Shown here: in pieces, positions 3,604 through 57,407 of the stretch | Numbering within the stretch: the first letter of the stretch is position 1 | Layout of the letters: every line of letters begins with the position of its first letter | The notes under the pieces: model-generated | What the model was told of the DNA's origin: nothing | Seen by the model: the letters and a program-made list of their open reading frames with translations, nothing else | The model's database searches: none | Translations under genes and position numbers: made by a program | Assembly (NCBI GenBank): GCA_009773005.1 | Contig: WOUT01000005.1 | Coordinates: 1 to 64,000 of the forward strand | Reading direction: 5' to 3' | Length of the DNA stretch: 64,000 bases | Origin: Chloroflexota bacterium | GTDB taxonomy: Bacteria > Chloroflexota > Anaerolineae > Anaerolineales > Anaerolineaceae

Positions 3604-3606
3604 CCC
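3576..3606 (+). other. Frameshift junction inside the RHS gene
   Basis: The upstream RHS frame ends in TAG at 3601-3603, and homologous RHS sequence continues without interruption in the frame that is shifted by one base (reading [10 protein letters not shown]). The two frames overlap by 28 bp. The continuity of YD-repeat sequence on both sides shows that one gene has lost or gained a base, in the cell or during assembly. No slippery heptamer is evident here, so programmed frameshifting is less likely. Confidence 0.75.
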
Positions 3607-6600
3607 GCCTCACCAAACTTCCCTCACGCACAATAACGCTGGATTGCGCCAGCGGCTGCGACTTCACTAACGAGACCGGTAAGACCGCTGAAAACCTGAT
3701 GCTCTATGATAATGCCACGGCAGCAACCACTGCGCCAACTGCAGGTAAACTAACCGCCGCCCGCACCTGGGTGGGTGGAACGAATTATTCGCAGGTGACC
3801 TATGGCTATGATCCCTACGGTAACCAGAATACCCAGACCACCTATACTGGCTATGGCACGGCAAGTGCAGCGCCAACGACTGGAGCAAGCAGCGCCTCCA
3901 CGGTGTATGACACAACTTTTAACACTTACCCGGTTTCACAAACCAATGCGCTGAACCATACCACCCAGACCGCCTATAACTATGCTGTCGGGTTACCCGT
4001 CAGCATCACCGACCCCAACAACGTGACCACCTCTGCCCAATATGACGTCTTCGGGCGCATGGTCAAGGTGGTTGCTCCTGGCGACAGCGACGCCTCGCCG
4101 ACTCTCGCCATCACTTATTACGATACCCGCATTCCATTCCAGATTCTCCTGAACCAGAAAGTGGACGGATCTGGAGCCTCCATCCGCCTCAGTCGCTTTT
4201 ACAACGGGCTGGGGTCGCAGATCCAGACCCAATCGGTGGGCGCGGTGGTGAACGGTGTGCAAAAGAACATGATCGTGGACTCACAATTCGACAACCTGGG
4301 AAGGCTGATCAAGGAAACCAAGCCGTATTCCATCAATTACAATGCTTCGCCAGCCTTCCAGGCGCAGACATTTACCCAAGCCTTGACGCAGACCGCCTAC
4401 GACCAGGTGAGCCGCCCGCTCACCGTGACAGAGCCGAACTCAAATGCCGTCACCTATGCTTATAACGGCTTATACACCAGTGTCACCGACCCGGCCCAGC
4501 AGGTGACCACCACCCTTAAAGACGCCTGGGGACGGGTAGTGAGTGTGGACGCTCCAACCGGACCCGACCTGACTTACAGCTACGACATCCGCAGCCTGCT
4601 CACATCCGTGCAAAAGGGAACCGGTGGATCAGCCACTGTCACGAGCATTGGTTATGACCAGGCCGGACGCAAGATCGCGATGGATGACCCCGACATGGGT
4701 GATTGGACCTACGCTTATAACGCGCTGGGCAGCCTGGTCAGCCAGACCGATGCCCGTTCCTGTGTGACCAGCCTGGCTTACGACGCGCTCAACCGCCTGA
4801 CCGGTAAATCCTTCAGTGGAACGGGTTCCTGCGGCGCCACTCCGTCCATTTCCTATACCTATGACAGCGGCGCCAACGGTAAAGGCCACCGCACCGGTAT
4901 GGAAGATGGATCTGGTTCCAGCGCCTGGGTTTTCGACGCGCGCGGCCGCACCCTCAGTGAGGTCAAGGTGATCAGTGGCAGCAGCTTCACCAGTTCATGG
5001 ACGTATAATAGCGCTGATCAACCCGTGACCATGACCTACCCGGACGGCGAAATGTTGACCTATGCGTACAACAGCCAGGGCGCCTTGAACGCCCTCAGCA
5101 ACAACCAGAGCTTCACCTATTTGGCTTCCACTCAATATGATGAAGCCGGGCGCATCACCCAGATGAACCTGGGCAGCGGCAACCTGCTGCGAAAAACCTT
5201 TACTTATTACGGCTGGACGACCAGCGTGAACGGCGGCAAGCTGAACAACATGACCGTCACCAACAGCAGCAACGCCACCCTGCAGAACCTGGGCTACAGC
5301 TACGATTCGCGCGGCAACATCACCCAGATCACGGATGGGGTCAATAGCGAAAGCTCCGCCTTTAGTTATGACTCGCTCAGCCGTCTGACCGCCATGACCG
5401 TTACCAATGGCGGTACGACCGTGCACAGCGAAGCTTTCACCTACGACGCTGCCAACGGCAACCTGAGCGGCAAGGGACCTGCTCTGAATACCTTGATTTC
5501 GTACACCTATGATGCCAGCCATCCGCACGCAGCCAGTGGGTTTGGCGTCAACAGCTACGCCTACGATGACAACGGCAACCAGACCGGGCGCGTGATCAGC
5601 GCGAATGAATTTGCCTTGACCTATGATGCCGCCAACCAACTGGTGAGCGTGGAGGTTGTGCTGCCCCCGGCCCCCACCCCCACGGCCACCGCCACGTTGA
5701 CCGTCACACCTACCCAGACGCTCACGCCCACCGCGACGAATACCCTGGTGCCCACCGAGGCCTCAACGCCAACTGAGACGGTCACCCCGACCGAAACGCC
5801 GGCTGCCACCGAGACGGCAACAGAAACCGCCACACCCACCGAAACCACAACCGTGATCGTGACCGAAACCGAGACCGTAGCCGCGACACCCACACCGACC
5901 GAGACGGCTACACCCACCGAAACGCATACACCAACGGTGACAGCAACCGCAACAGTTACCGCCACATCGACGCTCACGCCCACTGCCACTTTAACCGCCA
6001 CCGCGACCAGCTCGCCGATAGCCACCGCAACCGCCGCCCCGATCCCGGGAGAAGCTGAGTATACTTATGATGGTGACGGAAATTTGGTGAAGTCCGTGAT
6101 CGGCAACGTGACCACCTACTACCCGGGTACGCATTACGAGAAGCGGGTGGATGGACTGACTGAAAAGAACTTTAAATACTACTTTGTAGGTTCAACCCGC
6201 ATCGCCATGCGCGAAAATGGAACAATAACCTGGTTAATCTCGGATCATTTGGGGAGTACCAGCGTCACCGCCGATGCCTCTGGCACGTTACTCAGCTCAA
6301 TGCGCTACACTGCCTTTGGAGAGATGAGAACATATAGCGGAACGACTTCAACCGACTATCGCTATACCGGGCAAAGGCAGGAATCTGAAATTGGCCTATA
6401 CTTCTATAAAGCTCGCTGGTATGATGCCTCGTTAGCCCGTTTCGTGCAGGCGGATACGATTGTGCCGAACCCGGGCAGCATCAAGTCTTATGACCGGTTC
6501 GCGTATGTCAACAACAATCCGATCAACTTCAACGATCCGAGTGGGCATACTCCGGTCTGTGTGCTTGGAGGTACAAATGGGTGCTTACAATGGGCTGGAT

Positions 6601-7253
6601 TAACTGGCGTGAATGCAGCCGCTGGTATGGAAGGATTTGATGATGATATACATGCAAATCTCCATATGTATGGCATTAGAACCAACAGCATTGAAGGTCA
6701 AAATTCGCAAAAAGTTTTTACGGCAGTTGTTGCGGTTGCCAAAGCCATCAGCTCGGTAACTAATCTGTCATATCAAGAAGGTTACAAAAAGACAGCCGGG
6801 AAAATCAACTTTCAATTGTCTGGAATCGGTATATACGGTTTTGCTCCTCCATATGAAAAGTCCATATACATTAGAAATGATACAGCAGTAGACCATATTA
6901 TTCATGAAATTGGTCATCGCGTTGATTTTAACGGGTTTTTAATGAACTGGGATAATTACAAATCACAGAAGTTTATTGAAACCAACAGCTCGAATTGCTT
7001 GTCATCGATCGTTGGTTGTCTAGGAAACGATGCATCAAGTTTATACAAATTGGCTAATTCTCTTACCGGGGGTTCACCTTCTGGCACATATTCTACAACA
7101 GGTCGAACAACAACATATGGCCGCACATCCTCCATTGATGATTATGCGGACAGCTTCACAGCCTTTGTTCTACGCATTAATGCGATTAATTCAGATCATT
7201 ATGACCAGGTTGATGATTCAAGAATTGCTTTGATAATCGATTCACTCAAGTAA
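3576..7253 (+). CDS. RHS/YD-repeat protein, C-terminal portion with HExxH putative metallopeptidase toxin domain
   Basis: The 1225-residue frame continues the upstream RHS protein; its nominal ATG at 3576 is probably not a real start and reading is expected to enter near 3600. YD repeats are plentiful (YDVFGR, YDQAGRK, YDALNRL, YDEAGRI, YDSRGN). A Pro/Thr/Ala-rich tract lies at residues about 697-823, and the conserved core end follows at about 910-990 ([47 protein letters not shown]). Everything after PSGH is a different, AT-rich domain of about 235 residues. It contains HEIGH at residues 1110-1114 and a later acidic DDYADSF motif that could supply a third metal ligand. A zinc-dependent peptidase toxin is inferred from this; its target is unknown. 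The next gene, 15 bp downstream, encodes a lipoprotein that may be its immunity partner. Confidence 0.82.
5668..6045 (+). repeat. Pro/Thr/Ala-rich low-complexity linker-coding tract in the RHS gene
   Basis: About 125 codons encode irregular PT, TAT and TET repeats (for example [14 protein letters not shown]), using mostly ACC/ACG/ACA/CCC codons. The tract separates the block of YD repeats from the final core segment and probably acts as an extended, exposed linker. The mirrored valine-rich reading frame on the other strand is only a shadow of it. Confidence 0.85.
6283..6548 (+). repeat. RHS core-end repeat, copy 1
   Basis: The DNA encoding the RHS core end (from [12 protein letters not shown] to NFNDPSGH) is closely matched at 8391-8690. 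Identity is highest over roughly the last 115 bp, with long runs of identical bases. Such a conserved boundary in front of variable C-terminal domains is the usual substrate for toxin-cassette exchange by homologous recombination. Confidence 0.85.
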
Positions 7254-7268
7254 TAGGAGATAAAGGAC

Positions 7269-7976
7269 ATGAAATCCCATGCACATAATTTCATTTTTTC
7301 TATCATTAAAATCTCCCTCAGTTTTATGTTATTACTCGTTGGATGCGAGAATTATACACACCGTGGAACTGATCAACCTCAACTCAAAAGTGTGTGGGTT
7401 GATAGAATTTTGAACGAAAAGATCTGCAATCTTCCCTGTTGGGAAGGTATCACTCCTGGAATGACTACGATATTTGAAGCACTGGAAATTCTTCAATCCA
7501 ACGACTTATTTATAGGATTAAAAGACCCGGTACTCATTCGCGACAGCCCAATAACGTATGAACTTGCATGGCAAACAAAATCAGATACAGGAGGAGGTAT
7601 TGCCAGGTCTGTAGGTGAAAATTATGCCATTCGATCCATCTATTTATCACTCTCAAAAGAAAGGCCGGAAATAACAATAAATGAAATTATTGCTCATTTT
7701 GGTGAACCCGATTCGCTAATTATAGAAGAAGACCGTGGACTATGCATCGGTAATTTGTTTTATTCTGAAAAGGCTGTCACAGTGGTTTTTTCCGAACGTT
7801 GTCGCAAAAAAATGTCAGTGTCAGAGAATCAAGTAGTTGATAGTATTGAACTTTTCCCACTAGGAATCTCCACTTTTCCTGAAGTTGAGTATTTCCGTTC
7901 CAATACTCTCGAGTTTATACTTTATTGGACAGGGTATGGCGAGTATCCGATCACTAAGAAAATACAAATAGAGTAA
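7269..7976 (+). CDS. Putative lipoprotein, candidate immunity partner of the upstream HExxH RHS toxin domain
   Basis: This 235-residue protein starts 15 bp after the RHS gene with a GGAG-type site upstream. Its N-terminus is a typical lipoprotein signal (hydrophobic stretch, then LLLVGC with Cys26), so it is probably anchored to the outer face of the membrane. After the signal comes LPCWEGITPGMT and later a GEPDSL segment. The lipoprotein at 9420 has the equivalent LPPCWFDITPGVT and GEPEYY, so the two are paralogues, and each follows an HExxH-containing RHS end. The pairing suggests immunity against an externally delivered peptidase, but this is an inference from position. The gene is AT-rich compared with the RHS core. 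Confidence 0.6.
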   Translation: MKSHAHNFIFSIIKISLSFMLLLVGCENYTHRGTDQPQLKSVWVDRILNEKICNLPCWEGITPGMTTIFEALEILQSNDLFIGLKDPVLIRDSPITYELAWQTKSDTGGGIARSVGENYAIRSIYLSLSKERPEITINEIIAHFGEPDSLIIEEDRGLCIGNLFYSEKAVTVVFSERCRKKMSVSENQVVDSIELFPLGISTFPEVEYFRSNTLEFILYWTGYGEYPITKKIQIE

Positions 7977-8333
7977 TGAGGTTGCTTTGGATTTCTTCTG
8001 ATAAAAAAAACTTGCATTGCTACTTCACCAATAAAGACGGATACTCATATTAATATTAGAGGAATATTTCCCCTTACCCATTATTTTAAGCAACCTTACC
8101 AACTGTATATTCTAGTAATAAACTCCGTTTACCCCACGGAGACGGAGTAAGGCGGAGGTGTGGTAACCATCATCCGATCTATGAGGAAAACATCGAGCGA
8201 CCATCCCTTGTAAAGTCTAACTCGATCCGGCAAAAAACAATTCCGTAAATTACATATCTCGAGACAGGGTCATACATCTCAAGGTACTTTTCGGTAGAGA
8301 AACTCTTGTTCTTTATCAATCTCATACATCACC
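7977..8333 (+). other. Intergenic stretch between the first lipoprotein gene and the displaced RHS cassette
   Basis: No gene is recognisable in these 357 bp. The sequence includes a small hairpin with tandem ACGGAG units (8123-8147) and otherwise AT-rich, probably degenerate DNA. Any earlier RHS coding sequence that once preceded the second cassette is no longer identifiable here. Confidence 0.5.
8123..8147 (+). repeat. Small hairpin with tandem ACGGAG units
   Basis: CTCCGT (8123-8128) can pair with either of two adjacent ACGGAG copies (8136-8141 and 8142-8147). There is no T-run after it, so it is not a convincing terminator. Its role is unknown. Confidence 0.45.
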
Positions 8334-9398
8334 ATGCCCTCTGGTGTCGACAAATTGAATTTGCTCGACCTTGCATGCCATGATGCCATGGGTGGGCTGC
8401 TCAGTTCATTGCATTACACCGCCTTTGGAGAATTGCGCTCAGGAACAGCTGCGACTGATTATCGCTACACGGGGCAAAGAGAAGAATCCGAGATCGGGTT
8501 ATATTTTCGCGATCTTGGCGCCCCCGAGGAGATTGTCCGAGAGGGGTACGAGGCACGCTGGTATGACGCTGCGTTAGCCCGTTTCGTGCAAGCGGATACG
8601 ATTGTGCCGAACCCGGGAAGTCTGAAATCTTATGACCGGTTCGCGTATGTCAACAACAATCCGATCAATTTCAATGATCCGAGTGGACATTCTACATGCG
8701 AGAATATTGATGATTGCAGGGTTTCTAATCGAACAAAAACGACCTCTGAACTAATAAATATTGTACATAACACTTTTTCTTGGAGTGTTTCCGGAGATTT
8801 TGCAAGTAATCAAATCATCGAAATAATCAAAGCCGGAAATGCAATAATGAGCTATATGAATAAAATTAACAGCGGGCATGGGCGAGATTGGATACAATTA
8901 AACCTATCCTCAACAAAATTCGTAAAAAGTGAGGATACAATTCAACTGGCTGGAAAACTTAATGCACTGGCTTTTGTTTGGCCATACTACACTATAAAAT
9001 TTGGCTCATCTACAGTTGGCAAAGATGCTATTATTCATGAACTTGGACACGTTTTGGATAATAATCTAAAGGTTGGATTGGTTCCTGCAACAGTAAACGG
9101 AGGGGGACCAGCTGATAGTATGGTCCGGGCTATGGGTGGGCATCCAGGTAATAATCCATTAAGAATGCAGTATGGTGATCTTCAAATAAGCCCCTCTCTC
9201 AGTATCAACATAGTTTCCGATTATGACAGTTATTCTAAAAGCGTAGCAGGTAAAGACCCTTGGTTAAATGACTATGCAAATAATGGTGTTTCCGATGATT
9301 TTGCCCAGACTTTCAAGTACACGATAAATGGTATCAAATCACCGCTTGGATTCCGAACCAACTGGATGGCAACTTTTTTGCAAGGGCTCAGTTACTAA
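8334..9398 (+). CDS. Displaced RHS C-terminal cassette with second HExxH domain (orphan toxin end)
   Basis: The 354-residue frame lacks the large RHS shell. Residues about 19-118 repeat the core end of the gene at 3576 ([38 protein letters not shown]). The remaining 235 or so residues form a different AT-rich domain with HELGH at residues 235-239 and a downstream DDFAQTF motif, in the same order as HEIGH and DDYADSF in the first toxin end. The two domains therefore look distantly related. Thirteen extra residues interrupt the core (8508-8546). The ATG at 8334 has no clear ribosome site and the module may be silent until recombined onto a full RHS gene. A related lipoprotein gene begins 21 bp downstream. 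Confidence 0.68.
   Translation: MPSGVDKLNLLDLACHDAMGGLLSSLHYTAFGELRSGTAATDYRYTGQREESEIGLYFRDLGAPEEIVREGYEARWYDAALARFVQADTIVPNPGSLKSYDRFAYVNNNPINFNDPSGHSTCENIDDCRVSNRTKTTSELINIVHNTFSWSVSGDFASNQIIEIIKAGNAIMSYMNKINSGHGRDWIQLNLSSTKFVKSEDTIQLAGKLNALAFVWPYYTIKFGSSTVGKDAIIHELGHVLDNNLKVGLVPATVNGGGPADSMVRAMGGHPGNNPLRMQYGDLQISPSLSINIVSDYDSYSKSVAGKDPWLNDYANNGVSDDFAQTFKYTINGIKSPLGFRTNWMATFLQGLSY
8391..8690 (+). repeat. RHS core-end repeat, copy 2
   Basis: This is the second copy of the segment at 6283-6548, in the same orientation about 2.1 kb away. It differs by scattered substitutions and a 39-bp in-frame insertion. Recombination between the copies would replace the first toxin/lipoprotein pair with the second. 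Confidence 0.82.
8508..8546 (+). repeat. 39-bp in-frame insertion within the RHS core-end repeat
   Basis: The parental core reads [10 protein letters not shown], whereas this copy reads LYF, then RDLGAPEEIVREG, then YEARWYD. The extra 39 bp are GC-rich, keep the frame and contain CCCCGAG and GAGAGGGG segments. The insertion resembles the footprint of a small protein-coding repeat element, but no second copy was identified in the window. Confidence 0.55.
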
Positions 9399-9419
9399 TT
9401 CTATTCTTTGGAGATTCTG

Positions 9420-10082
9420 ATGAATAAAAGAATATGGAATATCTTTCTCATTATTTTCTTACCAGTATTAATTTCATCATGCTCATCAAATAGAACTTCA
9501 TTGCTAAAAGAAAGCTCGTGTTTGCCACCATGTTGGTTTGATATAACACCAGGTGTAACTAAGTTTGATGATGCAGTAGACCTTTTAATTAAAATACCAG
9601 GTATCAAATCCGATGCAGAAAAATTAAAATCAAAACTTGAATACAATAAAATCCTAGATTTATCAAATGTCAGAGAAAATGGTCTTCAGATTTCCGTATC
9701 CAATGAATACGTATCTAGGATTAGCATTTTTACCTCTGGATGGATGTATTCTGAAATAAAAAACCTCTATGGTGAACCTGAGTATTACCTTTCCTATTAT
9801 CAGCAATTTGAATCAATACATCGCTTTGTTTTCATTATTTATCCAAAGAGTGGTTTGATAATTTCGTTGGAAGCTAATGAATTCAACCCAGAAACAAATA
9901 ATTCAATAATTTCATTTGACTCAAAAGTCACTTCGGTTACTTTTATTTCATCGGAACATTTTTTTGAACATTTGGATTCTAACCTTGTTGGGTATCAAAA
10001 CAATTTCATCACAAAGAAACTTGAGCCTTGGCAAGGTCTAGGTGAGTTAGAAACAACAAAGTATGAAATTTTAACAAATTAA
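9420..10082 (+). CDS. Putative lipoprotein, candidate immunity partner of the displaced RHS cassette
   Basis: The 220-residue product starts at the ATG at 9420, six bases after GGAG (9410-9413); a TTG at 9408 is in frame but overlaps that site. It has a lipoprotein signal ending LISSC with Cys21. After the signal comes LPPCWFDITPGVT, matching the lipoprotein at 7269, and later YGEPEYY aligns with its FGEPDSL. Both proteins follow RHS ends carrying HExxH motifs. Surface anchoring is expected from the lipobox; immunity function is inferred from the repeated gene order. The gene is strongly AT-rich, consistent with transfer. Confidence 0.6.
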   Translation: MNKRIWNIFLIIFLPVLISSCSSNRTSLLKESSCLPPCWFDITPGVTKFDDAVDLLIKIPGIKSDAEKLKSKLEYNKILDLSNVRENGLQISVSNEYVSRISIFTSGWMYSEIKNLYGEPEYYLSYYQQFESIHRFVFIIYPKSGLIISLEANEFNPETNNSIISFDSKVTSVTFISSEHFFEHLDSNLVGYQNNFITKKLEPWQGLGELETTKYEILTN

Positions 10083-10270
10083 CTCATGCAACTCCATAAT
10101 AGATCTTCAATATATACTCAATAAGTTATGTCATTTTTGTAATAAATATTACCTCCTTATTGTTGCCTTCTTACTCTTACCGTATTATTAAATATTTCTG
10201 CCATTAGAAACCTCATACTACTCAATATTATTAGTTTATAAATTAAAATGCTTTTTCACGCCTTCCCACC

Positions 10271-10956
10271 TTTACACTCGCGCCGGTCCCGGGCGAGGCG
10301 AACTATGTGTATGACGGCGACGGTAACCTCGTTAACTCAACTATTGGCGACGTCGTTACGTATTACGTTGGTTCATATTATGAAAAGAAAGTGGTCGGAA
10401 CGACCCAGGTCGAAAGAAAATACTACACTGTTGGCACGACCAGAATTGCGATGAGACAGAACGGTGTATTAACCTGGCTGCTGGGGCGAGTGCTGCGGAA
10501 GCTACAGCTGCTGGGGTGACAACTGCTAGTGTCGCCCAAACCGCAAATATTGCTTGCAATGGAGATATGTGTGCAGGCGAAGTTAAAGATGCTAGCGTTG
10601 CAATTCCAAAATTAATACCCGCTACTCAAAATTTGGTGAGTAATACAATTACTACTGCTCAGAACGTTGGTGTCCCTGTGCAGAAAGGAATAACAGCAAT
10701 CGGGAACCGTGCTGATACATTATGGGTTTCTCAGAATTTACCTGGAGTTAGGACTTTAGTTAATGTCCAGAATTGGACCCCAAAAATGAACATTCGATGG
10801 TTGGATAGCGCGTTGCGTCGAGGAGATGAAATATGGAAGGTTACAGATCCAAAAGTATGGATAGAATTCAATAAAAGGTCTTTTTATTTTCAAGAAATAA
10901 GATACATAGACTATATTGGTAAGGGTAAAATTATAGATATGCTCCTAAAGAAATAA
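10271..10956 (+). pseudogene. Decayed RHS fragment fused to a third C-terminal domain
   Basis: From about 10271 to 10480 one frame encodes an RHS core piece (PVPGEANYVYDGDGN, TTRIAMRQNGVLTWLL) that matches 6030-6240 of the large gene. At about 10480 homology stops and the reading continues in another frame with AAGASAAEATAAGVTTASVAQT, the alanine-rich region that often opens RHS C-terminal domains. It then continues to KKIIDMLLKK-like AT-rich sequence ending at 10956. The core end (YTGQR to PSGH) that should lie between them is missing, so an internal deletion joined the two parts, possibly at the repeated GCTGCTGGGG bases. The domain after 10516 (residues with WLDSALRRGDEIW) has no function I recognise. 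Confidence 0.6.
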
Positions 10957-10964
10957 GGACAAAA

Positions 10965-11570
10965 ATGGACAATGATTTGGAACAATTGTTTTGCGAAATG
11001 GTACCAGTCAGATATGATTTTTTAATCAAAGAGTTCGGTTTTTCTTTTTATCAAGACCATACTTGGCGATTTAGAGCCGAGTCACCCAATTGTCGTATTG
11101 TAATGGAATATGAAAAAAATCACTCTGCTTGCTGGATCGAAAGAATTGACGATGGCAGTGCTGGGACAGAAATGTATCATGGGATTAATGTGAAGTTGAT
11201 TGCAGAATGTAAAGGATACGATAGTCTTGCATCTGGTCCCCAATTTCGCTCAAGTAGGGAGACCATTGAAAGGGAGATTGATGAATATACAATGTTACTT
11301 AAGGAGTATTGTGTAAACTTCCTTAGAGGCGATTTCTCGGAGTGGGCTTTAATTGTCACTTGTCTAAAATTTCAGAATGATAGTAGAGAAAGAAAAGAAA
11401 ACCTCATTGTGCAAGCACGTTTACACAAAGAAATAAGAGAGAAAGCTGAATCTGCCTGGAAAAATAAGGATTTTGCACAAGTAGTTACCCTTTACACCAG
11501 TATTTTTGATTTCTTGTCCCCTACTGAGAAAAAGAAAGTTGAATATGCTAAGAAGCAATTACATCAGTAA
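10965..11570 (+). CDS. Hypothetical protein, possible immunity partner of the third RHS remnant
   Basis: This 201-residue soluble protein starts 8 bp after the decayed third RHS end, with AAGGACAAAA upstream. It lacks a signal peptide or membrane segment. The N-terminal two thirds are mixed alpha/beta in character. The C-terminus (residues about 150-200) is Lys/Glu-rich and helical and could form a TPR-like hairpin. Position directly after a toxin-like end is the only pointer to an immunity role. If its toxin partner is dead, the gene could still protect against kin carrying the intact toxin. Confidence 0.45.
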   Translation: MDNDLEQLFCEMVPVRYDFLIKEFGFSFYQDHTWRFRAESPNCRIVMEYEKNHSACWIERIDDGSAGTEMYHGINVKLIAECKGYDSLASGPQFRSSRETIEREIDEYTMLLKEYCVNFLRGDFSEWALIVTCLKFQNDSRERKENLIVQARLHKEIREKAESAWKNKDFAQVVTLYTSIFDFLSPTEKKKVEYAKKQLHQ

Positions 11571-11696
11571 TTGGCACGAATAATGTTTTAGAAGGATGTT
11601 GTGTTTATCGAGTAAAGAAATACCCATAAATAGACAACCTTTACTTAGTTGTGATTTCTAGTCTGCCCCGAGATTATCATGGGATGAAATGGCGTA

Positions 11697-11813
11697 TTTC
11701 TGGTCACCGGAAATTGCGACACCCTGGGCGATACGCTCAAGACCTGGGTCTTCACCTATGATGGTGATGGTCGCGGTCTTCGCACTCCCTCGCGCTGCTC
11801 GGGGACGCAAAGA
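11697..11813 (+). pseudogene. RHS repeat remnant
   Basis: Read from the ACC at 11697, the frame gives GNCDTLGDTLKTWVFTYDGDG, which contains the YDGDG motif of RHS repeats, then degenerates into unrelated sequence and a stop. No start or continuation exists on either side. It marks the downstream limit of RHS-derived DNA. Confidence 0.55.
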
Positions 11814-11872
11814 TATCAGAAATGGTTTTTTTTGTTTTAAGGCGATAATTTTCTTTACCTATTGTACTGGTG

Positions 11873-11878
11873 TATAAT
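11873..11878 (+). promoter_or_regulatory. Possible -10 box of the lysC-asd-thrC-thrB operon
   Basis: A perfect TATAAT lies 140 bp before the aspartate kinase start. The region about 17 bp upstream is only T-rich and gives no good -35 match, so the assignment is tentative. Confidence 0.35.
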
Positions 11879-12018
11879 CCACATAATAAATCCGTGTTGG
11901 GTCTTCGTATCACTCAAACGGTTAAACCCAAAACGAAAACTAAATTCAATTACATACAAAATACCGACAAGTAATGTTCCGACACGAGCTCAGCGCTGGA
12001 GTGCATGGAGGTTTATTC

Positions 12019-49063: not shown

Positions 49064-50932
49064 CTAATACATCGGGATCAGTTTCTCGTAGTCTTCTAGG
49101 CTTCCATCTGCTTTGCAGCATTCGATAATATCCCTGCCCAACGGATTGAGATCATCGACTTCAAAATCCTTCAGGCATAAGAGGAAAAATTCTCTTAGAA
49201 TTTTCGCGCCTTGATCATAAGCTTCTTCTCCAACCTCTGGTTGAGTATCCACTTGCAGTAACCAGCGCGGAATCTGGTATCCTTCCATCTGACACTGATG
49301 CATGGCATAACCCAGCAATGTGCTTCGCGCTTGACGAATATGATGCGGCTGGAAACGTGAACTTCCACGCCTGGCAAGGTATTCCCGGGCGATCCATTGC
49401 GGAAAGAAGCCAACTTTCCAGGCGCCAATATACTGGTTTGGACAGAGAATGTAGCGCATGCGACGAAAGGTGTTGAACTGGTCAAGGAGTGCATTAGCTT
49501 GATTCACTCGCAATCCACTGACAAATGGCCAGTAAGAACCAACTCCTTCGCTGCTCATACCGTTATCATCGACAATACTGGGATTATCATGACCACGAGG
49601 AGAAACTAACCGCCAGAGCCAGGCAAGCGCTGGGGGCAACAAGTGGAACAGACCAATAATGCCGTAACTGGGCGATTCACGGGTGCAGGGTGGGGTACGC
49701 ACACCAAATGAACGGATGTCTACAGCCACTGGCTCGTTAATAATATTGGAAACAATATGTCGAGGAACAACAACTCGCGGGTTTGGGCAGGGTTTTCCTG
49801 GTTGATCTTCAATGTGTTCCCATATCAGAGCGCGGCTGCCTGCAACAGCATCGATATTCAGAAAGAGTAGCGGTGATTTAGGTAAGGCCGTCAGTCGTTC
49901 CAGATAAGGGTCAGTCCCATAGGTATTGATGTGGTTCACACGCAAGAACCAGGCTTTTTCAGCGTCTACCAGGTAGAGCTTTCCGTTTCCATCTTGCAGG
50001 CTGGGGTGGCAGAGAGCCATGTCATCTGCGATTGGATGCAGGTCACAGCTGCGAGGAAGCTGGAGGTGGCGTTCTTCACCGGTGATGATATTTTCAGCAA
50101 ATGCCCAACGACCATCATCTTTACGGTGGGCTTGCTCAAGCATCTCGCTCTTGCCACCTCCGCTGGCCCCTTCATGCATGATGGTTACTTGATTGTCATA
50201 AGGTGTGACCACTTGTACAGCGGAACAGTGCGCAGTCACCCAGCCCTCACGTTCACCAAGATCAAGAAGCATACCAAAAACGCCTTTTTTTGCGCTCGGT
50301 CCGGGATAAAGATTGTAGGAGAACATCTCATAAAGACCCTCCGCCCGGTTGTGCACGACTGATTGGCGGCCCCCAAAGTACATCATTCGGAAAACCGGTG
50401 CGGTATAGATAACAGCCTTGGGATCAAAAGTTTCGGGTAAATCCTGAGGTGCAATGATGCCTTGTAACATTGCCAGTCCTAGAGCAAAAAAACCTGCATT
50501 AGCTGGAACGATTGCCAATGCATCAATGCCCATCTCCGGTCTACCTGCGGTGAAGAAAAAACAAGCCAACTCTTGCTTGCTGAGCCAATCGAACGTTTGC
50601 TGTCGTAAAACCCCAAATTCTGTGTGGTACAAATCACGAAAACGCGGTTTATCCGACGGCCAATCATCACCTACAATCAGGCAGTCCGGGTCGCGTCGGC
50701 GCATATAGGGATCAGTATAATTAGCAGAAACCCCGTTTCGCACACGGACAACTTTTGCCTCAATCACCCGGCCGTGTCCAGGAACATCGTATGCAACTTC
50801 AAAGGAATCACTTCCAGGACCACCACAAGCCAGGTCTATTAATTGTTCAACATTTTCAGCAAACGTGACTTTTGGCGCAGATTCTAACAATCGAAGCGCT
50901 TCGACTGGTAATTTATAATTCTGCCAATTCAT
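49064..50932 (-). CDS. DUF4914-like protein with PEPCK/HprK-type P-loop
   Basis: The 622-residue protein most resembles the DUF4914 family as I recall it; this is not certain. A P-loop-like GASGGGKSEMLEQ lies at about residues 253-265, preceded by HSA and followed by acidic residues (DLHPIADDMALC), a pattern reminiscent of PEP carboxykinase or HPr kinase. An aromatic-rich region with RRMRYILCPNQYIGAWKVGF lies near the C-terminus. It is probably a soluble nucleotide-using enzyme. It forms a unit with the Sua5 gene, but no functional link is known to me. Confidence 0.6.
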   Translation of the reverse strand: MNWQNYKLPVEALRLLESAPKVTFAENVEQLIDLACGGPGSDSFEVAYDVPGHGRVIEAKVVRVRNGVSANYTDPYMRRRDPDCLIVGDDWPSDKPRFRDLYHTEFGVLRQQTFDWLSKQELACFFFTAGRPEMGIDALAIVPANAGFFALGLAMLQGIIAPQDLPETFDPKAVIYTAPVFRMMYFGGRQSVVHNRAEGLYEMFSYNLYPGPSAKKGVFGMLLDLGEREGWVTAHCSAVQVVTPYDNQVTIMHEGASGGGKSEMLEQAHRKDDGRWAFAENIITGEERHLQLPRSCDLHPIADDMALCHPSLQDGNGKLYLVDAEKAWFLRVNHINTYGTDPYLERLTALPKSPLLFLNIDAVAGSRALIWEHIEDQPGKPCPNPRVVVPRHIVSNIINEPVAVDIRSFGVRTPPCTRESPSYGIIGLFHLLPPALAWLWRLVSPRGHDNPSIVDDNGMSSEGVGSYWPFVSGLRVNQANALLDQFNTFRRMRYILCPNQYIGAWKVGFFPQWIAREYLARRGSSRFQPHHIRQARSTLLGYAMHQCQMEGYQIPRWLLQVDTQPEVGEEAYDQGAKILREFFLLCLKDFEVDDLNPLGRDIIECCKADGSLEDYEKLIPMY

Positions 50933-51283: not shown

Positions 51284-51583
51284 ATGCTACATGAACCCTC
51301 AACTCCGGCAGGAAAAGACCCTGCAGGTCCTTACAAGATACGTTTAGGCATTTGGATGTTTATTGCATATTCACTTTTCTATGCAAGTTTTGTGGCAATC
51401 AACCTGCTTAATCCATTGGCGATGGCAGCGATTGTCTTTGCAGGATTGAATCTGGTGACTGTCTATGGTTTTGCATTAATTATTGTGGCACTGATCGAAG
51501 CCCTCGTTTATGATTGGTTTTGCCGTCGAAAAGAGGCTTTCTATTTAAAAGCCGAAGAATCAAAAGAAAAAGGACAGGATTAA
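51284..51583 (+). CDS. DUF485 family small membrane protein
   Basis: The 99-residue protein has a polar N-terminus and two membrane segments (about residues 25-45 and 55-80), with a GLNLVTVYGFALIIVALIEA stretch typical of DUF485. Proteins of this family (YjcH type) are encoded immediately before acetate permease ActP and are thought to assist the symporter. The ATG follows AAGGAG. Its stop lies 3 bp before the symporter start, so the two are translationally coupled. Confidence 0.82.
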   Translation: MLHEPSTPAGKDPAGPYKIRLGIWMFIAYSLFYASFVAINLLNPLAMAAIVFAGLNLVTVYGFALIIVALIEALVYDWFCRRKEAFYLKAEESKEKGQD

Positions 51584-51586
51584 TCC

Positions 51587-53482
51587 ATGGCGATCTTCAT
51601 TTTTCTAATCTTTGTTTTTTTTGTAATCGGACTTTCTCTTTATTTGGGTAAAAAAACAAAAACTTCCAGCGCGTACTATGCGGCTGGCGGCAAGATTCAT
51701 TGGGGAGTGAATGGCGTGGCATTTGCCGGGGATTATCTTTCGGCAGCGTCTTTTCTCGGAATCTGTGGCATGATTGCTACGGTTGGTTTTGATGGTTTCC
51801 TCTATTCCATTGGTTATTTGGCTGGTTGGATTGTCGCGCTCTTTGTCGTGGCTGAACCACTTAAAAAGCTGGGGAAATATACCTTCACGGATGCCCTGGA
51901 TGCAAACTACAACTCGCGCGGAATAAAATTAGCCGCTGCAATTAGCACACTGGTTGTCTCTATCTTCTATCTTATTCCGCAAATGGTGGGCGCCGGTGTA
52001 TTGGTGGAACCCTTATTGGGTATCCCTCATTCCTGGGGTGTGTTGATGGTCGGCGCAATTGTGATCACGATTGTGGCTACCGCAGGGATGGCATCAACCA
52101 CTTACGTACAATTCCTTAAAGGGTTCCTGTTGGTCATTTTCTCCTCCGTTTTGGTGGCTGCAGTGGTTATTCGAGGTCTATCCACTCAACCGGATCAGGG
52201 TGGCAAAGTTGCCTTCTATGAATATTCCCACCTCAGTGCGTCTAGATCCGGAGAGCAGATCACGGTAAACGAGGCTGGTTGGAGCGTTTTGGAACAAAAA
52301 GAAATCAAAGGCGGTTTGGTTTTTGTCAAACTTGGGCGCGATAACATGGAAACCTGGTGGTCAGTGTCTGAAAGCAACGGCGCCATCACGCTTGATGAGT
52401 CCCAATCTGTGGTTGTAAAAACTGATGGCAAATGGATTAACGGCGCCCCCGCTTCTTCGACAAATCATTTGCGTCAAGTGGGCAACCTCGAAAAAATTAA
52501 TGGCGAGAGCAATGTCGAGACCGGCAGGCTTTCCCTCTTTGGGTTTTTGTCGACCCTTACCAATAAAGACACCATGGTTCAAACTTGGAAAACAGCTAAC
52601 TTTGTGGATGGCGCCGGTGAGAAGGTAACCGTCTATTATCCCAAGATCGTGTCTGGCGACCGCATCATGCGGCCTGGACTTAAATTCAAAGTTGAGGGCA
52701 CCTGGCTTGAAAAACTGGATTTCCTTTCTCTAATGCTGGCTCTGTTCATGGGGACCGCTGCCCTTCCGCATATTCTCATCCGTTATTACACCGTGCCCAA
52801 CCCGGCCAGCGCGCGCAAATCCACAATTGTGGCTATTGGGGCGATCGGCTTTTTCTATATCTTGACTCTCTTCATGGGTTTTGGAGCCTTGGTGAATGGA
52901 ACTGTCAATCCTGCAGATAGCAACATGGCCGCGCCGCTGCTGGCACGCTCTTTTAGTGAGTTGCTCTTTGCGGTTATCTCGGCCATCGCCTTCGCTACCG
53001 TATTGGGAACCGTCAGCGGTTTGATCGTAGCTGCCTCAGGTGCAGTCGCGCATGACCTGTTTGACCGCTATCTGAAAATTAAAATGGATGACCACCAGAA
53101 AGTTACCGCCGGGAAAATTGCAGCCTTTGTCATTGGTGGAATTGCCATCCTGCTTGGTATTCTATTCAAAGGCATGAATGTTTCATTTCTCGTAGGTTTG
53201 GCTTTTGCAGTTGCAGCCTCAGCAAACCTGCCTGCAATTCTCATGATGCTTTTCTGGAAAAAAACTACTGCTAGAGGGATCGCCGCCTCGATTGTGGTAG
53301 GCATCGTCTCTTCCTTGGCCTTGATTGCGTTTTCACCTGAATTGTATACGCTTTACGGACGGAATCCACTGGATGCGCCAATCCCGCTCAATAACCCTGG
53401 GATTGTCTCCATTCCATTGAGTTTTATCACACTGATAGTAGTATCCCTTCTCACTGTGAAGAAAAAAGAGGCCATAGCATAA
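51587..53482 (+). CDS. Sodium:solute symporter, acetate permease-like, with large soluble insertion
   Basis: The 631-residue protein belongs to the SSS family and resembles cation/acetate symporter ActP, as also indicated by the coupled DUF485 gene. The family start (YYAAGGKIHWGVNGVAFAGDYLSAASFLG) and SSS motifs (ALFMGTAALPHILIRYYTVP) are present. ActP is about 550 residues. Here a hydrophilic segment of roughly 160 residues at about 205-375 (including TWWSVSESNG and KFKVEGTWLEKLD) interrupts the membrane core and may form an outside domain. It probably imports acetate or another short carboxylate. A terminator follows the gene. Confidence 0.85.
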   Translation: MAIFIFLIFVFFVIGLSLYLGKKTKTSSAYYAAGGKIHWGVNGVAFAGDYLSAASFLGICGMIATVGFDGFLYSIGYLAGWIVALFVVAEPLKKLGKYTFTDALDANYNSRGIKLAAAISTLVVSIFYLIPQMVGAGVLVEPLLGIPHSWGVLMVGAIVITIVATAGMASTTYVQFLKGFLLVIFSSVLVAAVVIRGLSTQPDQGGKVAFYEYSHLSASRSGEQITVNEAGWSVLEQKEIKGGLVFVKLGRDNMETWWSVSESNGAITLDESQSVVVKTDGKWINGAPASSTNHLRQVGNLEKINGESNVETGRLSLFGFLSTLTNKDTMVQTWKTANFVDGAGEKVTVYYPKIVSGDRIMRPGLKFKVEGTWLEKLDFLSLMLALFMGTAALPHILIRYYTVPNPASARKSTIVAIGAIGFFYILTLFMGFGALVNGTVNPADSNMAAPLLARSFSELLFAVISAIAFATVLGTVSGLIVAASGAVAHDLFDRYLKIKMDDHQKVTAGKIAAFVIGGIAILLGILFKGMNVSFLVGLAFAVAASANLPAILMMLFWKKTTARGIAASIVVGIVSSLALIAFSPELYTLYGRNPLDAPIPLNNPGIVSIPLSFITLIVVSLLTVKKKEAIA

Positions 53483-53687: not shown

Positions 53688-56600
53688 ATGGATACTACAA
53701 TTCTTGTCAATTTTCACTGTCACACCATCTTTAGCGATGGCGAACAGACCCCCGAGGCACTTGCCGGAAACCTGGCCTCGGAGGGTGTGCGCTATGCTGC
53801 GCTGACAGACCATGACACGATTGAAGGCTTGCCGCGTTTTCAGGATGCCCTCAAAAAACGCGGAATAGCCTTTTTGCCTGGTGTGGAATTGACCACGCGG
53901 TTCAACGGTCGTGAAGCGCACTTGCTTGGTTACGGTATTGACCCAGAGTATCCCGAACTAACCAATACGTTGCTGTCTCTGCGCCAGGTACGCAGCCTTG
54001 AAGTGCATAGTATCGCCGGGTCATTACGCAAGGTTGGCAGTAGTGGCTCGAACAATACAAGCACCTCCCAGGCGGTCAGCGCCGCTCCGAAAGGCGAACT
54101 GGAAATTGGTGAAGCCATCGCACTGATTCATCGCGCCGGCGGGCGTGCCTTTTGGGCACATCCGTTTGTGTTCGAATCCAACCTGGAACAACTGGATGTC
54201 ATGATCGGGGAACTAGGATCGAAAGGACTGGATGGAATCGAAGCGATTTACGCCTCCTTTTCTGAAACAGAGCAACTCAGCCTGCGTTCTTTAGCCCAAA
54301 AACACGACCTGCTCGTTTGCGCAGGGACTGATTTCCACGACACGAATGGCAAATACAGTCATTCTTATGGTATAGAAATGCTACGGGAAGACTGGACTAA
54401 ATTTCGGCGAGCGCTATTTTCAAGTCCAACATTTACAGCAGATGCCGCTGCTTCTGAAAAATCAAAAACCACTGCCCAGGCAACACAAGGTTATCAAACT
54501 GGTAAGGTGCACCACTATCAACGGCGTTCTTTTATCTTACGTATTTTTCTGCCAACTTTTATTGCAATTGCTCTTTTCCTGGGCGCTTTTTGGGGGTTTG
54601 TCTTGCCCTCCTTTGAGGAAACCCTTCTCGAACGCAAACGAGAAATGATTCGCGAATTGACCAATTCTGCCTGGAGTATCCTTTCTTCGTATCAGCGTGA
54701 TGAACAAAACGGCGTACTTACGCGCAAACAAGCGCAGGAACTGGCAATCGCGCGCATCGAAACCTTGCGGTACGGCCCTGAAGGCAAAGATTATTTTTGG
54801 ATTCAAGATATGCAGCCTCGCATGATTATGCACCCGTACCGCTCGGATTTAAACGGTCAGGACCTGCTCAATTTATCCGATCCCCGCGGAGTGCGCATTT
54901 TTGTTGAGTTTGCCAATTTAGTGCAACGCGAGGGTGAGGGGTATATTGATTACGTCTGGCAGTGGAAAGATGATCCGCAACGTCTGGAACCTAAAGAATC
55001 GTTCGTGAAGGGCTTCGCACCCTGGGGTTGGATTATTGGAACTGGTATTTACATCGATGATGTCAATCAAGAAATTGCGCTCATTGAACGTAGCCTGACC
55101 AATACATCGCTGGCAATTTCTGGCGCGATCGTAGTGCTGCTCCTGTTCGTCCTTCAGCAAAGTCTGCGTATCGAAAAGGAACGGCAGGAAGTTGTCGATG
55201 ACCTGCGTGAATCAACGGAGCGTTACCACTCTCTGGTCGAGGCCACCACCGAGGGCACTCTGCTCGTTTTAGATGACCGCTGCCGTTATGCCAACCCTAC
55301 TTTTTTGAGCATGCTTGGTTACACGACTCAACAATTGGATTTTTTGGAAATAGCAGACCTATTACCTCGTAAAACTGATAACGCAGCCATTTGGGAACGT
55401 TTTCAGGACTTGAATGGCGGACAGACAGAAAAGGGAGACGCGCTAGAAGGTTGCCTGATGCGGATCGATGGCAGCCTGGTAGAGTGTATCCTGACAATCA
55501 ACCCGATCCTGTACGCCGGGCAACGCGGTTTCATCTTACTGGCCAAAGACATTTCCCGACAGCCTGCTTCACTTGGCAATGATGGATTAGCTCTCGCTGC
55601 ACTTTCCATTCCAGTGGGTATCTTCCGTGCTCGCGCCGCTCGACGTGGCGTCTTCCTGGAAATCAATCAGACAGGACGATCCTTCCTCCCCCATTTGTCG
55701 ATTGCTGAAGTCTGCCAGCCAGCCTTGGCGGATTTCTTTTCCGATGCCGAGGAATACGAACAGGTTTTCCAAACCCTGCTCACTGACGGGGAACTCAAGA
55801 ACCACATCCTCCACCTTGAAACCAGCGATGCCACTGCCTGTTTCATCTCACTCTCGGCACACCTGGTTCGCGATGAACATGGCCAACCTGCCTACATTTC
55901 CGGGCTGTTGGAGGATGTAACTACTGCCCGCAAAAATGAAGCAGGACGTGAAGCGCTGATTGCGAAATTACAAGCTTCACTTCTGTTCTTGCATGAACCG
56001 ATTACCAGTCTGGGTCGGGATTTTGTAATTTGCCACATGGACACCAGCATTGAACAACTATCCCGGATTATGACCGCGCGCAAGGTGACAGCTGTTCTTG
56101 TTGCGAGTGAAACCGCAACAATCATTGGTATTGTCACTGATCATGATTTGCGTGCGCGTGTACTGGCAGAAAATATCGAGCGAAGCGCCCCAATCCATAC
56201 CATAATGAGCTCACCGCTCACAAGAATCGCGGAACATGCACTGGTTTACGAGGCGCTCATGAGCATGGAAGAAAAAGGTGTGCGTCACCTGGCTGTTGAA
56301 GACCAGAACGGTCAGATTGTCAGCGTGATTGATAGCAAGTCTCTGATCCAATTCCAGAGGTACGGCCCGATAGTGCTTTACCGTGAAATTGCGCGGGCTA
56401 AAACTACAGACGAGGTAGCCCAATGCTGTGAGCGCACTTCACCCCTGGTCAAGGCTCTCATGGACAGCAGCGCCCGCCCGCGTCATGTTACCAATATGCT
56501 GGCTTCCATCTGCGACTCAGCCACCGAACGGCTGATTCAAATGGCTGTGAATGATCTTGGTCCGACGCCCGCCACTTTCGCCTTCATTGCCATGGGCAGC

Positions 56601-57407
56601 CAGGGACGCCAGGAACAAACCTTGCTGACCGACCAGGATAACGGCATATTATTTGCGCCTGCAGCGAATGCCGACCCTGAAAAGGTGAAGGATTACTTCA
56701 TGCAATTGGGAACACGAGTGTGTGATGGTTTGAATCGCGCCGGATACCCATTCTGTCGCGGTCAGGTAATGGCGAACAATGCACGTTGGTGTCGCTCTCT
56801 GCCCGACTGGCTCTCTGGTTTTGACGAGTGGGTGCAAAAGTCGGAGCCGCAGGAAATTGTTGACCTTAGTATTTTTTTTGATTTTCGCACAGTTTATGGA
56901 GACACGGAACTGGTGCATGAATTGCGCCGGCATATTCACTCAGTCCTGCTGGATAAACCGGCGATCTTTCATTTTCTCGCGCAGAATACGCTGCTGTTCA
57001 AACCGCCCTTCCGGCTGCTTGGCAATATCTATTTAAGCGGCGGTACCAAAGAACATTCCGGCGAAATTAATCTAAAAGACGCCATGATGCCGATCGTCAG
57101 TTTTGCGCGTTTGTATGCATTGCGGCACCATATGAACCAGACCCATACTCTCGCAAGGATCGAAGCTCTAGCGGAAAGAAATGTAATCCTTTCCTCGAGC
57201 CGCGATGAAATTACCGCTGCTTATGATTTCTTGATGCATTTACGTCTGCAGAATCAACTATTTGATATCCAGTCCGGGCGTCTTCCCCATAACATCATCC
57301 ACCCTGGCAAATTGGTCAATATTCAGCAGGAATTGTTAAAGCAAGCGTTTACCCAGATCGCTGCGATACAAAAGAAAGTCAGTTATGATTTTCTTGGAGG
57401 GGTGTGA
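53688..57407 (+). CDS. PHP-Cache-PAS-CBS-DUF294 multidomain signalling protein
   Basis: The 1239-residue protein appears to join five modules. Residues about 5-230 are a PHP phosphoesterase domain (NFHCHTIFSDG, LTDHDT, PGVELTT, AGTDFHD) with its metal ligands intact. Two membrane segments (about 282-305 and 474-495) bracket a Cache-type sensor domain (DYFWIQDMQPRMIMHPY, GFAPWGWIIGTGIYIDD). Next come two PAS-like regions (about 505-755), a pair of CBS domains (about 765-895), and a DUF294 nucleotidyltransferase-like domain with GSQGRQEQ and DQDNG (about 969-983) plus its C-terminal partner. CBS-DUF294 proteins often accompany sodium:solute symporters, which fits the upstream gene. It probably senses an external ligand and adjusts uptake or metabolism. 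Confidence 0.85.
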   Translation: MDTTILVNFHCHTIFSDGEQTPEALAGNLASEGVRYAALTDHDTIEGLPRFQDALKKRGIAFLPGVELTTRFNGREAHLLGYGIDPEYPELTNTLLSLRQVRSLEVHSIAGSLRKVGSSGSNNTSTSQAVSAAPKGELEIGEAIALIHRAGGRAFWAHPFVFESNLEQLDVMIGELGSKGLDGIEAIYASFSETEQLSLRSLAQKHDLLVCAGTDFHDTNGKYSHSYGIEMLREDWTKFRRALFSSPTFTADAAASEKSKTTAQATQGYQTGKVHHYQRRSFILRIFLPTFIAIALFLGAFWGFVLPSFEETLLERKREMIRELTNSAWSILSSYQRDEQNGVLTRKQAQELAIARIETLRYGPEGKDYFWIQDMQPRMIMHPYRSDLNGQDLLNLSDPRGVRIFVEFANLVQREGEGYIDYVWQWKDDPQRLEPKESFVKGFAPWGWIIGTGIYIDDVNQEIALIERSLTNTSLAISGAIVVLLLFVLQQSLRIEKERQEVVDDLRESTERYHSLVEATTEGTLLVLDDRCRYANPTFLSMLGYTTQQLDFLEIADLLPRKTDNAAIWERFQDLNGGQTEKGDALEGCLMRIDGSLVECILTINPILYAGQRGFILLAKDISRQPASLGNDGLALAALSIPVGIFRARAARRGVFLEINQTGRSFLPHLSIAEVCQPALADFFSDAEEYEQVFQTLLTDGELKNHILHLETSDATACFISLSAHLVRDEHGQPAYISGLLEDVTTARKNEAGREALIAKLQASLLFLHEPITSLGRDFVICHMDTSIEQLSRIMTARKVTAVLVASETATIIGIVTDHDLRARVLAENIERSAPIHTIMSSPLTRIAEHALVYEALMSMEEKGVRHLAVEDQNGQIVSVIDSKSLIQFQRYGPIVLYREIARAKTTDEVAQCCERTSPLVKALMDSSARPRHVTNMLASICDSATERLIQMAVNDLGPTPATFAFIAMGSQGRQEQTLLTDQDNGILFAPAANADPEKVKDYFMQLGTRVCDGLNRAGYPFCRGQVMANNARWCRSLPDWLSGFDEWVQKSEPQEIVDLSIFFDFRTVYGDTELVHELRRHIHSVLLDKPAIFHFLAQNTLLFKPPFRLLGNIYLSGGTKEHSGEINLKDAMMPIVSFARLYALRHHMNQTHTLARIEALAERNVILSSSRDEITAAYDFLMHLRLQNQLFDIQSGRLPHNIIHPGKLVNIQQELLKQAFTQIAAIQKKVSYDFLGGV

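Follow-up and report, generated by a model that had tools for sequence, protein, structure and literature searches.

A conserved transmembrane protein with PHP phosphoesterase and DUF294 nucleotidyltransferase domains, and a PHP/DEDDh exonuclease exchange among DUF294 genes: a candidate writer/eraser receptor for carboxylates

Operons that pair a CBS-DUF294 protein with a DEDDh exonuclease, often beside a sodium:solute symporter (SSF) gene and a DUF485 or DUF4212 gene, are among the closest described systems to the gene analyzed here, a single open reading frame (ORF) of 1239 amino acids at positions 53688-57407 (+) of a 64,000-nucleotide stretch of a Chloroflexota genome (contig WOUT01000005.1, positions 1 to 64,000; hereafter the window). 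The window protein shares with these operons the CBS pair, DUF294 and DUF294_C. An operon of Pseudomonas putida contains pp_0354, which encodes a CBS protein, and the RNase_T exonuclease gene pp_0353, and loss of pp_0353 or of actP-I impairs growth on pyruvate (PMC9927547). In Pseudomonas fluorescens, Pflu5625 has cAMP-binding, CBS and nucleotidyltransferase domains; nucleotidylation was predicted for it, and growth on acetate was hardly affected when it was deleted (PMC5715377). We liken these proteins to the CBS-DUF294 and exonuclease operons on the basis of the published descriptions of their domains. The CBS-DUF294 relatives that we scanned sense through a cNMP-binding domain with CBS, or through CBS alone, and have a separate or fused exonuclease, whereas the window protein has a Cache-PAS-PAS arrangement, a membrane part and a fused PHP phosphoesterase domain.

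On the one hand, the window protein can be compared with GlnD, which holds a nucleotidyltransferase (NTase), an HD phosphodiesterase and ACT sensor domains in one chain, the HD domain being there to reverse the NTase. Both GlnD and GlnE resemble the window protein in combining a Pol-beta NTase with a helical HEPN-type domain (PMC3710099). GlnE has two NTases, whereas the window protein carries PHP, Cache, PAS and CBS domains in a membrane protein, and a Pfam scan of the latter to E 1 found neither an HD nor an ACT domain. The window protein is GlnD-like in the way in which we propose that it works, yet it is no GlnD. On the other hand, the replicases DnaE and PolC, as well as PolX, are DNA polymerases that combine an NTase and PHP in one chain, as the window protein does; to our knowledge, replicases have no sensors and no membrane part. 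In most bacteria PHP is the proofreader of the replicase, and on three or more occasions a DnaQ-type exonuclease has taken over from it, either as a subunit of its own or fused (PMC7694242). Among C-family polymerases, PHP is universal and frequently inactivated (PMC12926913). The PHP domain and DnaQ both remove what the replicase polymerase adds, and this offers a parallel for opposed activities.

Pfam and NCBIfam profile scans gave the same domains in the same order as an earlier note made from the letters of this DNA, including its complete PHP catalytic domain at the front and its Cache sensor bracketed by membrane segments. All Pfam calls on the 1239-residue protein lie above the curated cut-offs. 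The features of the gene are as follows.

53688..57407, + strand: whole gene, PHP-TM-sCache_2-TM-PAS-PAS-CBS-CBS-DUF294-DUF294_C (TM, transmembrane segment), 1239 amino acids; from the ORF and the Pfam and NCBIfam profile scans
53688..54422, + strand: PHP phosphoesterase domain, about residues 1-245; from NCBIfam, structure alignment and a structure model; nine metal ligands H10, H12, D17, H42, E67, H78, H158, D215 and H217
54531..54587, + strand: transmembrane segment 1, residues 282-300; mean hydropathy 2.24
54630..55085, + strand: extracytoplasmic sCache_2 domain, residues 315-466; from Pfam; pocket Y369, W371, H382, F405, Y422, W424 and K436
55110..55166, + strand: transmembrane segment 2, residues 475-493; mean hydropathy 2.20
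55218..55553, + strand: PAS domain 1, residues 511-622; Pfam PAS
55638..55931, + strand: PAS domain 2, residues 651-748; Pfam PAS_4
56016..56357, + strand: CBS domain pair, about residues 777-890; from Pfam, a profile of our own and a structure match
56433..56852, + strand: DUF294 nucleotidyltransferase domain, residues 916-1055; from Pfam; G970, S971, R974, E976, D982 and D984, with D1065 just after the domain
56964..57392, + strand: DUF294_C, a helical domain of the HEPN/KNTase type, residues 1093-1235; from Pfam and a structure model; kinship with HEPN after PMC3710099

The extent of the PHP domain depends on the method: it is residues 9-73 by Pfam, 7-126 plus one further stretch by the NCBIfam PHP models, and 4-121 and 139-218 by alignment to solved PHP structures. 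DUF294 and DUF294_C (PF03445 and PF10335) reach 148.1 and 121.4 bits against gathering scores of 21 and 22.5. Since two hydrophobic stretches flank the Cache domain, this domain is probably outside the cell, with PHP and the part from the first PAS domain onward in the cytoplasm. The genome of the window (2.86 Mb, 105 contigs) contains no second DUF294 gene; the closest relatives of the 1239-residue protein place it with the Anaerolineae of Chloroflexota.

The order from PHP to DUF294 is that of a conserved family and no one-off. The whole domain order aligns end to end, as a single segment with 40-78% identity, at dozens of other loci. Among the 62 related loci found in the genomes searched, 43 have a distinct PHP-plus-DUF294 gene, which is in a single frame in 39 cases and split in four (L017, L037, L058 and L060). 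The other 19 comprise seven Myxococcota loci without PHP and 12 that are cut by a contig end or match the Cache or PHP part only. Together with the window's gene and five further genes, this gives 49 distinct PHP-plus-DUF294 genes. A misassembly of two genes, which the earlier note had named as a refutation, is ruled out, because the order recurs at full length in many separate assemblies. That note knew of no described protein with this order, and our literature search for PHP with DUF294 in one protein, which left subscription literature and domain databases outside its scope, likewise found no description.

By record title, the PHP-plus-DUF294 genes come from eight phyla, namely Chloroflexota, Armatimonadota, Lentisphaerota, Verrucomicrobiota, Thermodesulfobacteriota, Fermentibacterota, Spirochaetota and Walliibacteriota, the last by a split-frame gene; nearly all of the loci are from metagenome-assembled bins, so that phylum labels may be wrong. 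The label 'Calditrichaeota' of a contig-cut locus outside this count (L051) is suspect, with 63% identity over the stretch that it holds. In the window's order, 10 of 301 genomes have the full-length gene and four more have it in pieces (few candidates were scored per genome), indicating a patchy distribution. Shorter versions lack the second PAS domain (L052, L053 and L058) or both the second PAS domain and CBS (L054-L057 and L060), and all of them retain PHP, Cache and DUF294. One further protein, L049, has no CBS by profile search.

The main clue to opposed activities is a partnership with exonucleases, which is absent from the earlier note. We sampled 14 DUF294 regions of plasmids, hand-picked for variety from 74 records, 10 Chloroflexota loci (of 15 matches) and 56 of 57 strong matches from 100 genomes drawn evenly across Pseudomonadota; strong matches (E <1e-25) occur in 43 of these genomes, and the contig-cut G527 was omitted. 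All loci were searched with our own profiles for NTase, PHP, Cache, CBS, SSF, DUF485 and exonuclease. Merging at 97% identity left 147 DUF294 genes, of which 49 carry PHP and 98 do not. The main count is limited to genes that have 3 kb or more of flank on each side and excludes 35 genes, of which 22 are PHP-fused (none with an exonuclease) and 13 are PHP-less (nine with one). Two genes counted as PHP-less, L077 and L078, are contig-cut pieces of PHP-fused genes.

In the main count, a DEDDh exonuclease lies within 3 kb or is fused in 78 of the 85 PHP-less genes (79 loci), on the same strand in 72 cases, on the opposite strand in four and fused in two, whereas this holds for none of the 27 fully flanked PHP-fused genes, the window's included. 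By source, the PHP-less genes with an exonuclease are 47 of 51 in the Pseudomonadota sample, 10 of 12 on plasmids, 7 of 8 in Chloroflexota, 12 of 12 in Myxococcota and 2 of 2 elsewhere. In the plasmid survey itself, two of the 14 regions are unannotated; an exonuclease is present within the 6 kb flanks of 11 of the other 12 and absent in Skermanella. A profile search of the stretches fetched for all 49 PHP loci, which total 0.73 Mb and include the whole window, found no exonuclease. RNase_T occurs at three places in the 2.86 Mb of the window's genome, all on other contigs, so the proximity seen in 78 of 85 genes is far above background. The partner exonucleases largely keep their DEDDh residues, which among 75 aligned sequences read D in 74, E in 74, D in 67 (E in eight), H in 74 and D in 74. 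In two proteins (L213:5461-7596 (-) and L157:6097-8868 (+)), the exonuclease is fused N-terminally to CBS-DUF294 in one chain, in the same position as PHP here. The earlier note had suggested from the fusion that PHP removes what DUF294 adds. Opposed activities are better supported by this exchange of partners than by the fusion alone, and the replicase parallels and the GlnE/GlnD analogues lend further indirect support; the activities are predicted ones, and the independent exchanges number one to three.

Several other arrangements were seen around the exonucleases. The partner exonucleases of L202, L205, L211 and L189 are of about 700 amino acids and have long N-terminal regions; near them are ORFs of about 870-910 amino acids with N-terminal halves that match SSF, perhaps kinases of the CrbS/MxtR type. 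L196 has back-to-back DUF294 genes (3514-5427 (-) and 5707-7575 (+)), each with its own exonuclease. The stretch of L158 was cut and was refetched as L216, for which ORFs were listed outside the exonuclease profile scan; its gene at 5842-8118 (-) encodes a Desulfobacula protein that ends in DUF294, with a start that reads, by eye rather than by profile scan, like PAS and kinase-type regions. The footnote of a published Bacilli table mentions an operon with DUF294 and dnaQ, for which no matching gene column could be identified.

To place the exchange in the history of the genes, we built quick trees without bootstraps for 143 of the 147 genes and used 64 rows for the pairing analysis. In the NTase tree, the PHP-fused genes are in one group of 58 rows (SH-aLRT 98), which consists of 48 rows with PHP, eight Cache-bearing ones without PHP (seven Myxococcota and L187) and the contig-cut L077 and L078. 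A single gain of PHP, followed by loss in Myxococcota and L187, would be the most economical history on these trees, which are not decisive. In random pairings, the exonuclease was opposite to PHP in about four-fifths and did not differ in the rest. We regard the contrast between PHP and exonuclease as suggestive, being strong as a description and weak as statistics. The L187 gene (5455-8016 (-)), from Pseudomonadota, encodes a Cache-PAS-DUF294 protein with a DUF6915-like N-terminus (24 bits, cut-off 27) in the place of PHP, and its fetched stretch contains no exonuclease.

Based on an alignment to the RNase AM structure paper (PMC9410882), the nine metal ligands of PHP read HHDHEHHDH in 48 of the 49 distinct genes. 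The active nine-ligand motif is HHDHEH[C/H]DH, and HHDHEHHDH was scored as active in a replicase survey (PMC12926913). The NTase residues G970, S971, R974, E976, D982, D984 and D1065 are also intact in 48 of the 49 PHP-fused genes. In the exception, L038, the same protein has lost two of the PHP ligands and, in the NTase, one of the DxD aspartates, and no symporter is nearby; such joint decay is expected from a shared cycle, and this is one case of it. The loss of catalytic residues in both parts across homologues, the other outcome that the earlier note had set against its own view, is thus confined to L038.

RNase AM (YciV) and the 3',5'-nucleoside bisphosphate phosphatase Cv1693 have the PHP fold and the nine metal ligands in common with the window protein. 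The PHP model, from a 39-row alignment (39 of 44 sequences), has a mean pLDDT of 91.4, and its best structure match is RNase AM (7ug9, E 2e-18). RNase AM has a folded insertion domain and Arg201, whereas the predicted structure of the window PHP has a low-confidence loop at about residues 103-138 and V161 at the equivalent places; the pocket arginine R102 is present in 25 of 49. Two NCBIfam models of the RNase AM or 3',5'-nucleoside bisphosphate phosphatase kind score 132 of 400 and 105 of 375 bits, far below their cut-offs, with NF041577 the best at 132. We consider that PHP has an RNase AM-like catalytic centre, yet is no RNase AM, and that its substrate is probably different.

For DUF294, the catalytic role of the GS-R-E-D-D residues is one that we assume from the Pol-beta superfamily. 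The CBS-DUF294 model, from a 51-row alignment (51 of 53 sequences), has a mean pLDDT of 87.3, and the top three Foldseek matches are the C-half of GlnE (3k7d), DrrA (6yx5) and the N-half of GlnE (1v4a). VIA-align gave Z 27.7 for 1v4a (330 residues, rmsd 5.4), 26.5 for 3k7d (308 residues, rmsd 3.1) and 25.2 for the AMPylator DrrA, 6yx5 (297 residues, rmsd 3.5), and the rows below these three are matches of the CBS pair. Judging also by their titles, we take all three to be enzymes that move AMP on or off proteins, while a fold match indicates kinship and not activity.

These structural results bear on whether the substrate is RNA. DUF294 might add nucleotides to an RNA end that PHP or the exonuclease trims, tuning the stability of the mRNA of transport genes or of small RNAs. 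The best PHP structure match would suit this, since RNase AM is a 5'-3' exoribonuclease (PMC9410882), as would the DEDDh partners, which are exonuclease relatives, and the P. putida authors included mRNA decay among their speculations on how pp_0353 acts (PMC9927547). We find a role on RNA unlikely, because GlnE and DrrA, which the NTase fold matches over its full length, modify proteins, the Pfam scan of the 1239-residue protein showed no RNA-binding domain, and the insertion domain and pocket arginines of RNase AM are not conserved.

The Myxococcota loci give a view of an orthologue without PHP. In six of the seven (L040, L043, L044, L046, L047 and L059), one strand carries a plain DUF294-type relative, an exonuclease, a PHP-less Cache-PAS-PAS-CBS-DUF294 gene, DUF485 and SSF; in L045, the plain relative and the exonuclease are divergent. 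Four of the plain relatives combine CBS with cNMP-binding domains, that of L045 has CBS only, and those of L046 and L047 show DUF294_C only, by Pfam. In all seven loci this relative is damaged, having lost the entire motif or at least one of the two catalytic aspartates, whereas the Cache-bearing orthologue is intact. The orthologue is thus the sole intact writer at these loci, with an exonuclease close by, and the arrangement would suit a writer whose eraser is a separate protein that acts in trans. The companion relatives are likely pseudo-enzymes paired with an exonuclease.

The signal may be approached through the Cache domain. PscD and McpP are sCache_2 sensors of C2/C3 carboxylates. The PscD-type chemoreceptors, whose output is methyl-accepting, share a seven-residue sCache_2 pocket with the window protein. 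PscD binds acetate, glycolate, propionate and pyruvate through Tyr90, Trp92, His103, Phe126, Tyr143, Trp145 and Lys156 (PMC5062169). By alignment these contacts correspond to Y369, W371, H382, F405, Y422, W424 and K436, all seven identical, and they are invariant in the 44 Cache domains aligned, of 51 sequences at hand. A C2/C3 carboxylate is thus the likely ligand, predicted from this conserved pocket and in line with the type of the neighboring symporter. The NCBIfam model of the sensor kinase MctS also matches residues 308-504 (86.4 of 700 bits); MctS has a kinase output, whereas a nucleotidyltransferase/phosphodiesterase output is predicted here.

Just upstream of the 1239-residue gene and on the same strand are two genes.

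51284..51583, + strand: small DUF485-like membrane protein, 99 amino acids; Pfam DUF485 at 21.7 bits, below the cut-off of 28
51587..53482, + strand: sodium:solute symporter (SSF), 631 amino acids; nearest NCBIfam model the monocarboxylate transporter MctC, 441.6 bits against a cut-off of 670

The nearest NCBIfam models of the symporter are those of MctC and the acetate transporter ActP, all below cut-off. The link of DUF294 proteins to such symporters, which the earlier note had pointed out, extends to this family: among the 27 fully flanked PHP-fused loci, a profile search placed an SSF gene at most 3 kb away in 22 and a DUF485 gene at most 4 kb away in 18. When the 201 neighboring ORFs of these loci were clustered by BLAST, SSF was in 19 loci and DUF485 in 16; the next cluster was in six and the others in at most four, mostly the closely related L023, L025, L037 and L048. 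SSF and DUF485 are the sole broadly recurring neighbor families. Several tyrosines are conserved among 34 aligned DUF485 sequences, so that no single target residue is picked out. A search for acs in the window's genome gave two sub-cut-off matches only, leaving acetate activation by Acs unsupported there.

The neighbor survey also bears on whether the product is a small nucleotide signal, an adenylylated metabolite or short oligonucleotide that DUF294 would synthesize and PHP would hydrolyze. Pol-beta-type NTases include nucleotidyltransferases of small molecules, PHP relatives act on 3',5'-nucleoside bisphosphates (as in the best NCBIfam model above), and the CBS pair has an AMP-bound structure match, 2rif, in keeping with the binding of adenine nucleotides by such domains. 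Beyond SSF and DUF485, no recurrent candidate receptor for such a signal was seen among the 201 neighbors, where a receptor encoded elsewhere would not appear, and the fold matches favor protein substrates. A small signal is accordingly a quite improbable product in our estimate.

We propose that the window protein is a transmembrane receptor for C2/C3 carboxylates that writes and erases a mark with one protein, in the manner of GlnD; we give this about an even chance, with the catalysis and the direction of the reactions predicted from the domains. The extracytoplasmic Cache domain would read acetate, propionate or pyruvate, and the PAS and CBS domains would add cytoplasmic cues, a redox state or other ligand in the former case and adenine nucleotides in the latter. 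The signal would shift the balance between the C-terminal DUF294, which would transfer a nucleotidyl group (AMP or UMP) from a nucleoside triphosphate onto a hydroxyl group of its protein target, and PHP at the N-terminus, which as a three-metal phosphodiesterase would take it off. The fused PHP would replace the separate DEDDh exonuclease of most other DUF294 enzymes sampled. That PHP and DUF294 share one substrate is slightly favored in our estimate. The likeliest target would be the co-encoded symporter or the DUF485-like partner, an assignment that we make tentatively and with well under even confidence. A DnaQ-type exonuclease hydrolyzes the p-nitrophenyl ester of TMP (PMC7694242), a compound that, in our judgment, resembles a nucleotide on tyrosine.

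Several results weigh against this proposal. When well-supported branches alone are used, there is a single independent pair of genes with a contrast in PHP, and the upper limit is three; with so few switches, a Fisher test value is no fair probability, and we keep the contrast as a count only. An exonuclease is missing from the 3 kb on either side of seven of the 85 PHP-less genes, two of which have one slightly farther off, at 3.1-3.4 kb, and the 12 Myxococcota genes, two per shared exonuclease, reduce the count to 66 of 73 when left out. The Myxococcota exonucleases may serve the damaged companion and not the Cache orthologue. A split into two overlapping frames affects four of the 49 PHP-plus-DUF294 genes. 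The loss of the insertion domain and pocket arginines makes a PHP substrate unlike that of RNase AM probable. That the symporter is the target everywhere is excluded by the PHP-fused loci themselves: of the 27 with full flanks, five (four from Armatimonadota) lack an SSF gene in the vicinity. Ten neighbor proteins of these five loci share no family, and L036 among them has an amino-acid permease with a Usp domain upstream. In P. putida, loss of pp_0354, like that of pp_0353, caused no growth defect on succinate or acetate (PMC9927547). The literature searched held no biochemistry of any DUF294 protein.

The small number of switches would also suit two domains with unrelated jobs, or a structural or regulatory PHP, the exonuclease contrast being an accident of lineage, and the E. 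coli replicase indeed keeps an inactive PHP for structure (PMC3666897). The conservation of all nine metal ligands in 48 of the 49 genes and the damage to both sites together in the sole exception, L038, speak otherwise, and we rate unrelated jobs as rather improbable.

Proteins with DUF294 are common, as the strong matches in 43 of the 100 Pseudomonadota genomes show, and the fused PHP and its exchange with an exonuclease make them the subject of a testable writer/eraser hypothesis with a named candidate signal and target. If it is true, protein nucleotidylation would join the bacterial controls of nutrient uptake, and an exonuclease fold would be able to act as a protein de-modifying enzyme. 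As a wider reading, which we put somewhat short of even, the window protein would belong to one-component transmembrane receptors of a new class, which respond to a carboxylate outside the cell and, with a single chain, write and erase a nucleotide mark on a symporter system, and DUF294 writers in general would need a dedicated eraser (DEDDh or PHP, with HD as its counterpart in GlnD), in the same exchange as that of PHP and DnaQ in replicases.

Three further observations concern the window. The transporter models match the symporter at 51587-53482 in two pieces, with an insert of about 150 residues (near 200-355) relative to MctC and ActP. The gene next to the symporter operon, at 49064-50932 (-), encodes a DUF4914 protein (1007 bits) that also matches PEPCK weakly (E 0.15). 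The G+C fraction is 0.389 at positions 8001-12000, against 0.44-0.51 in the rest of the window.

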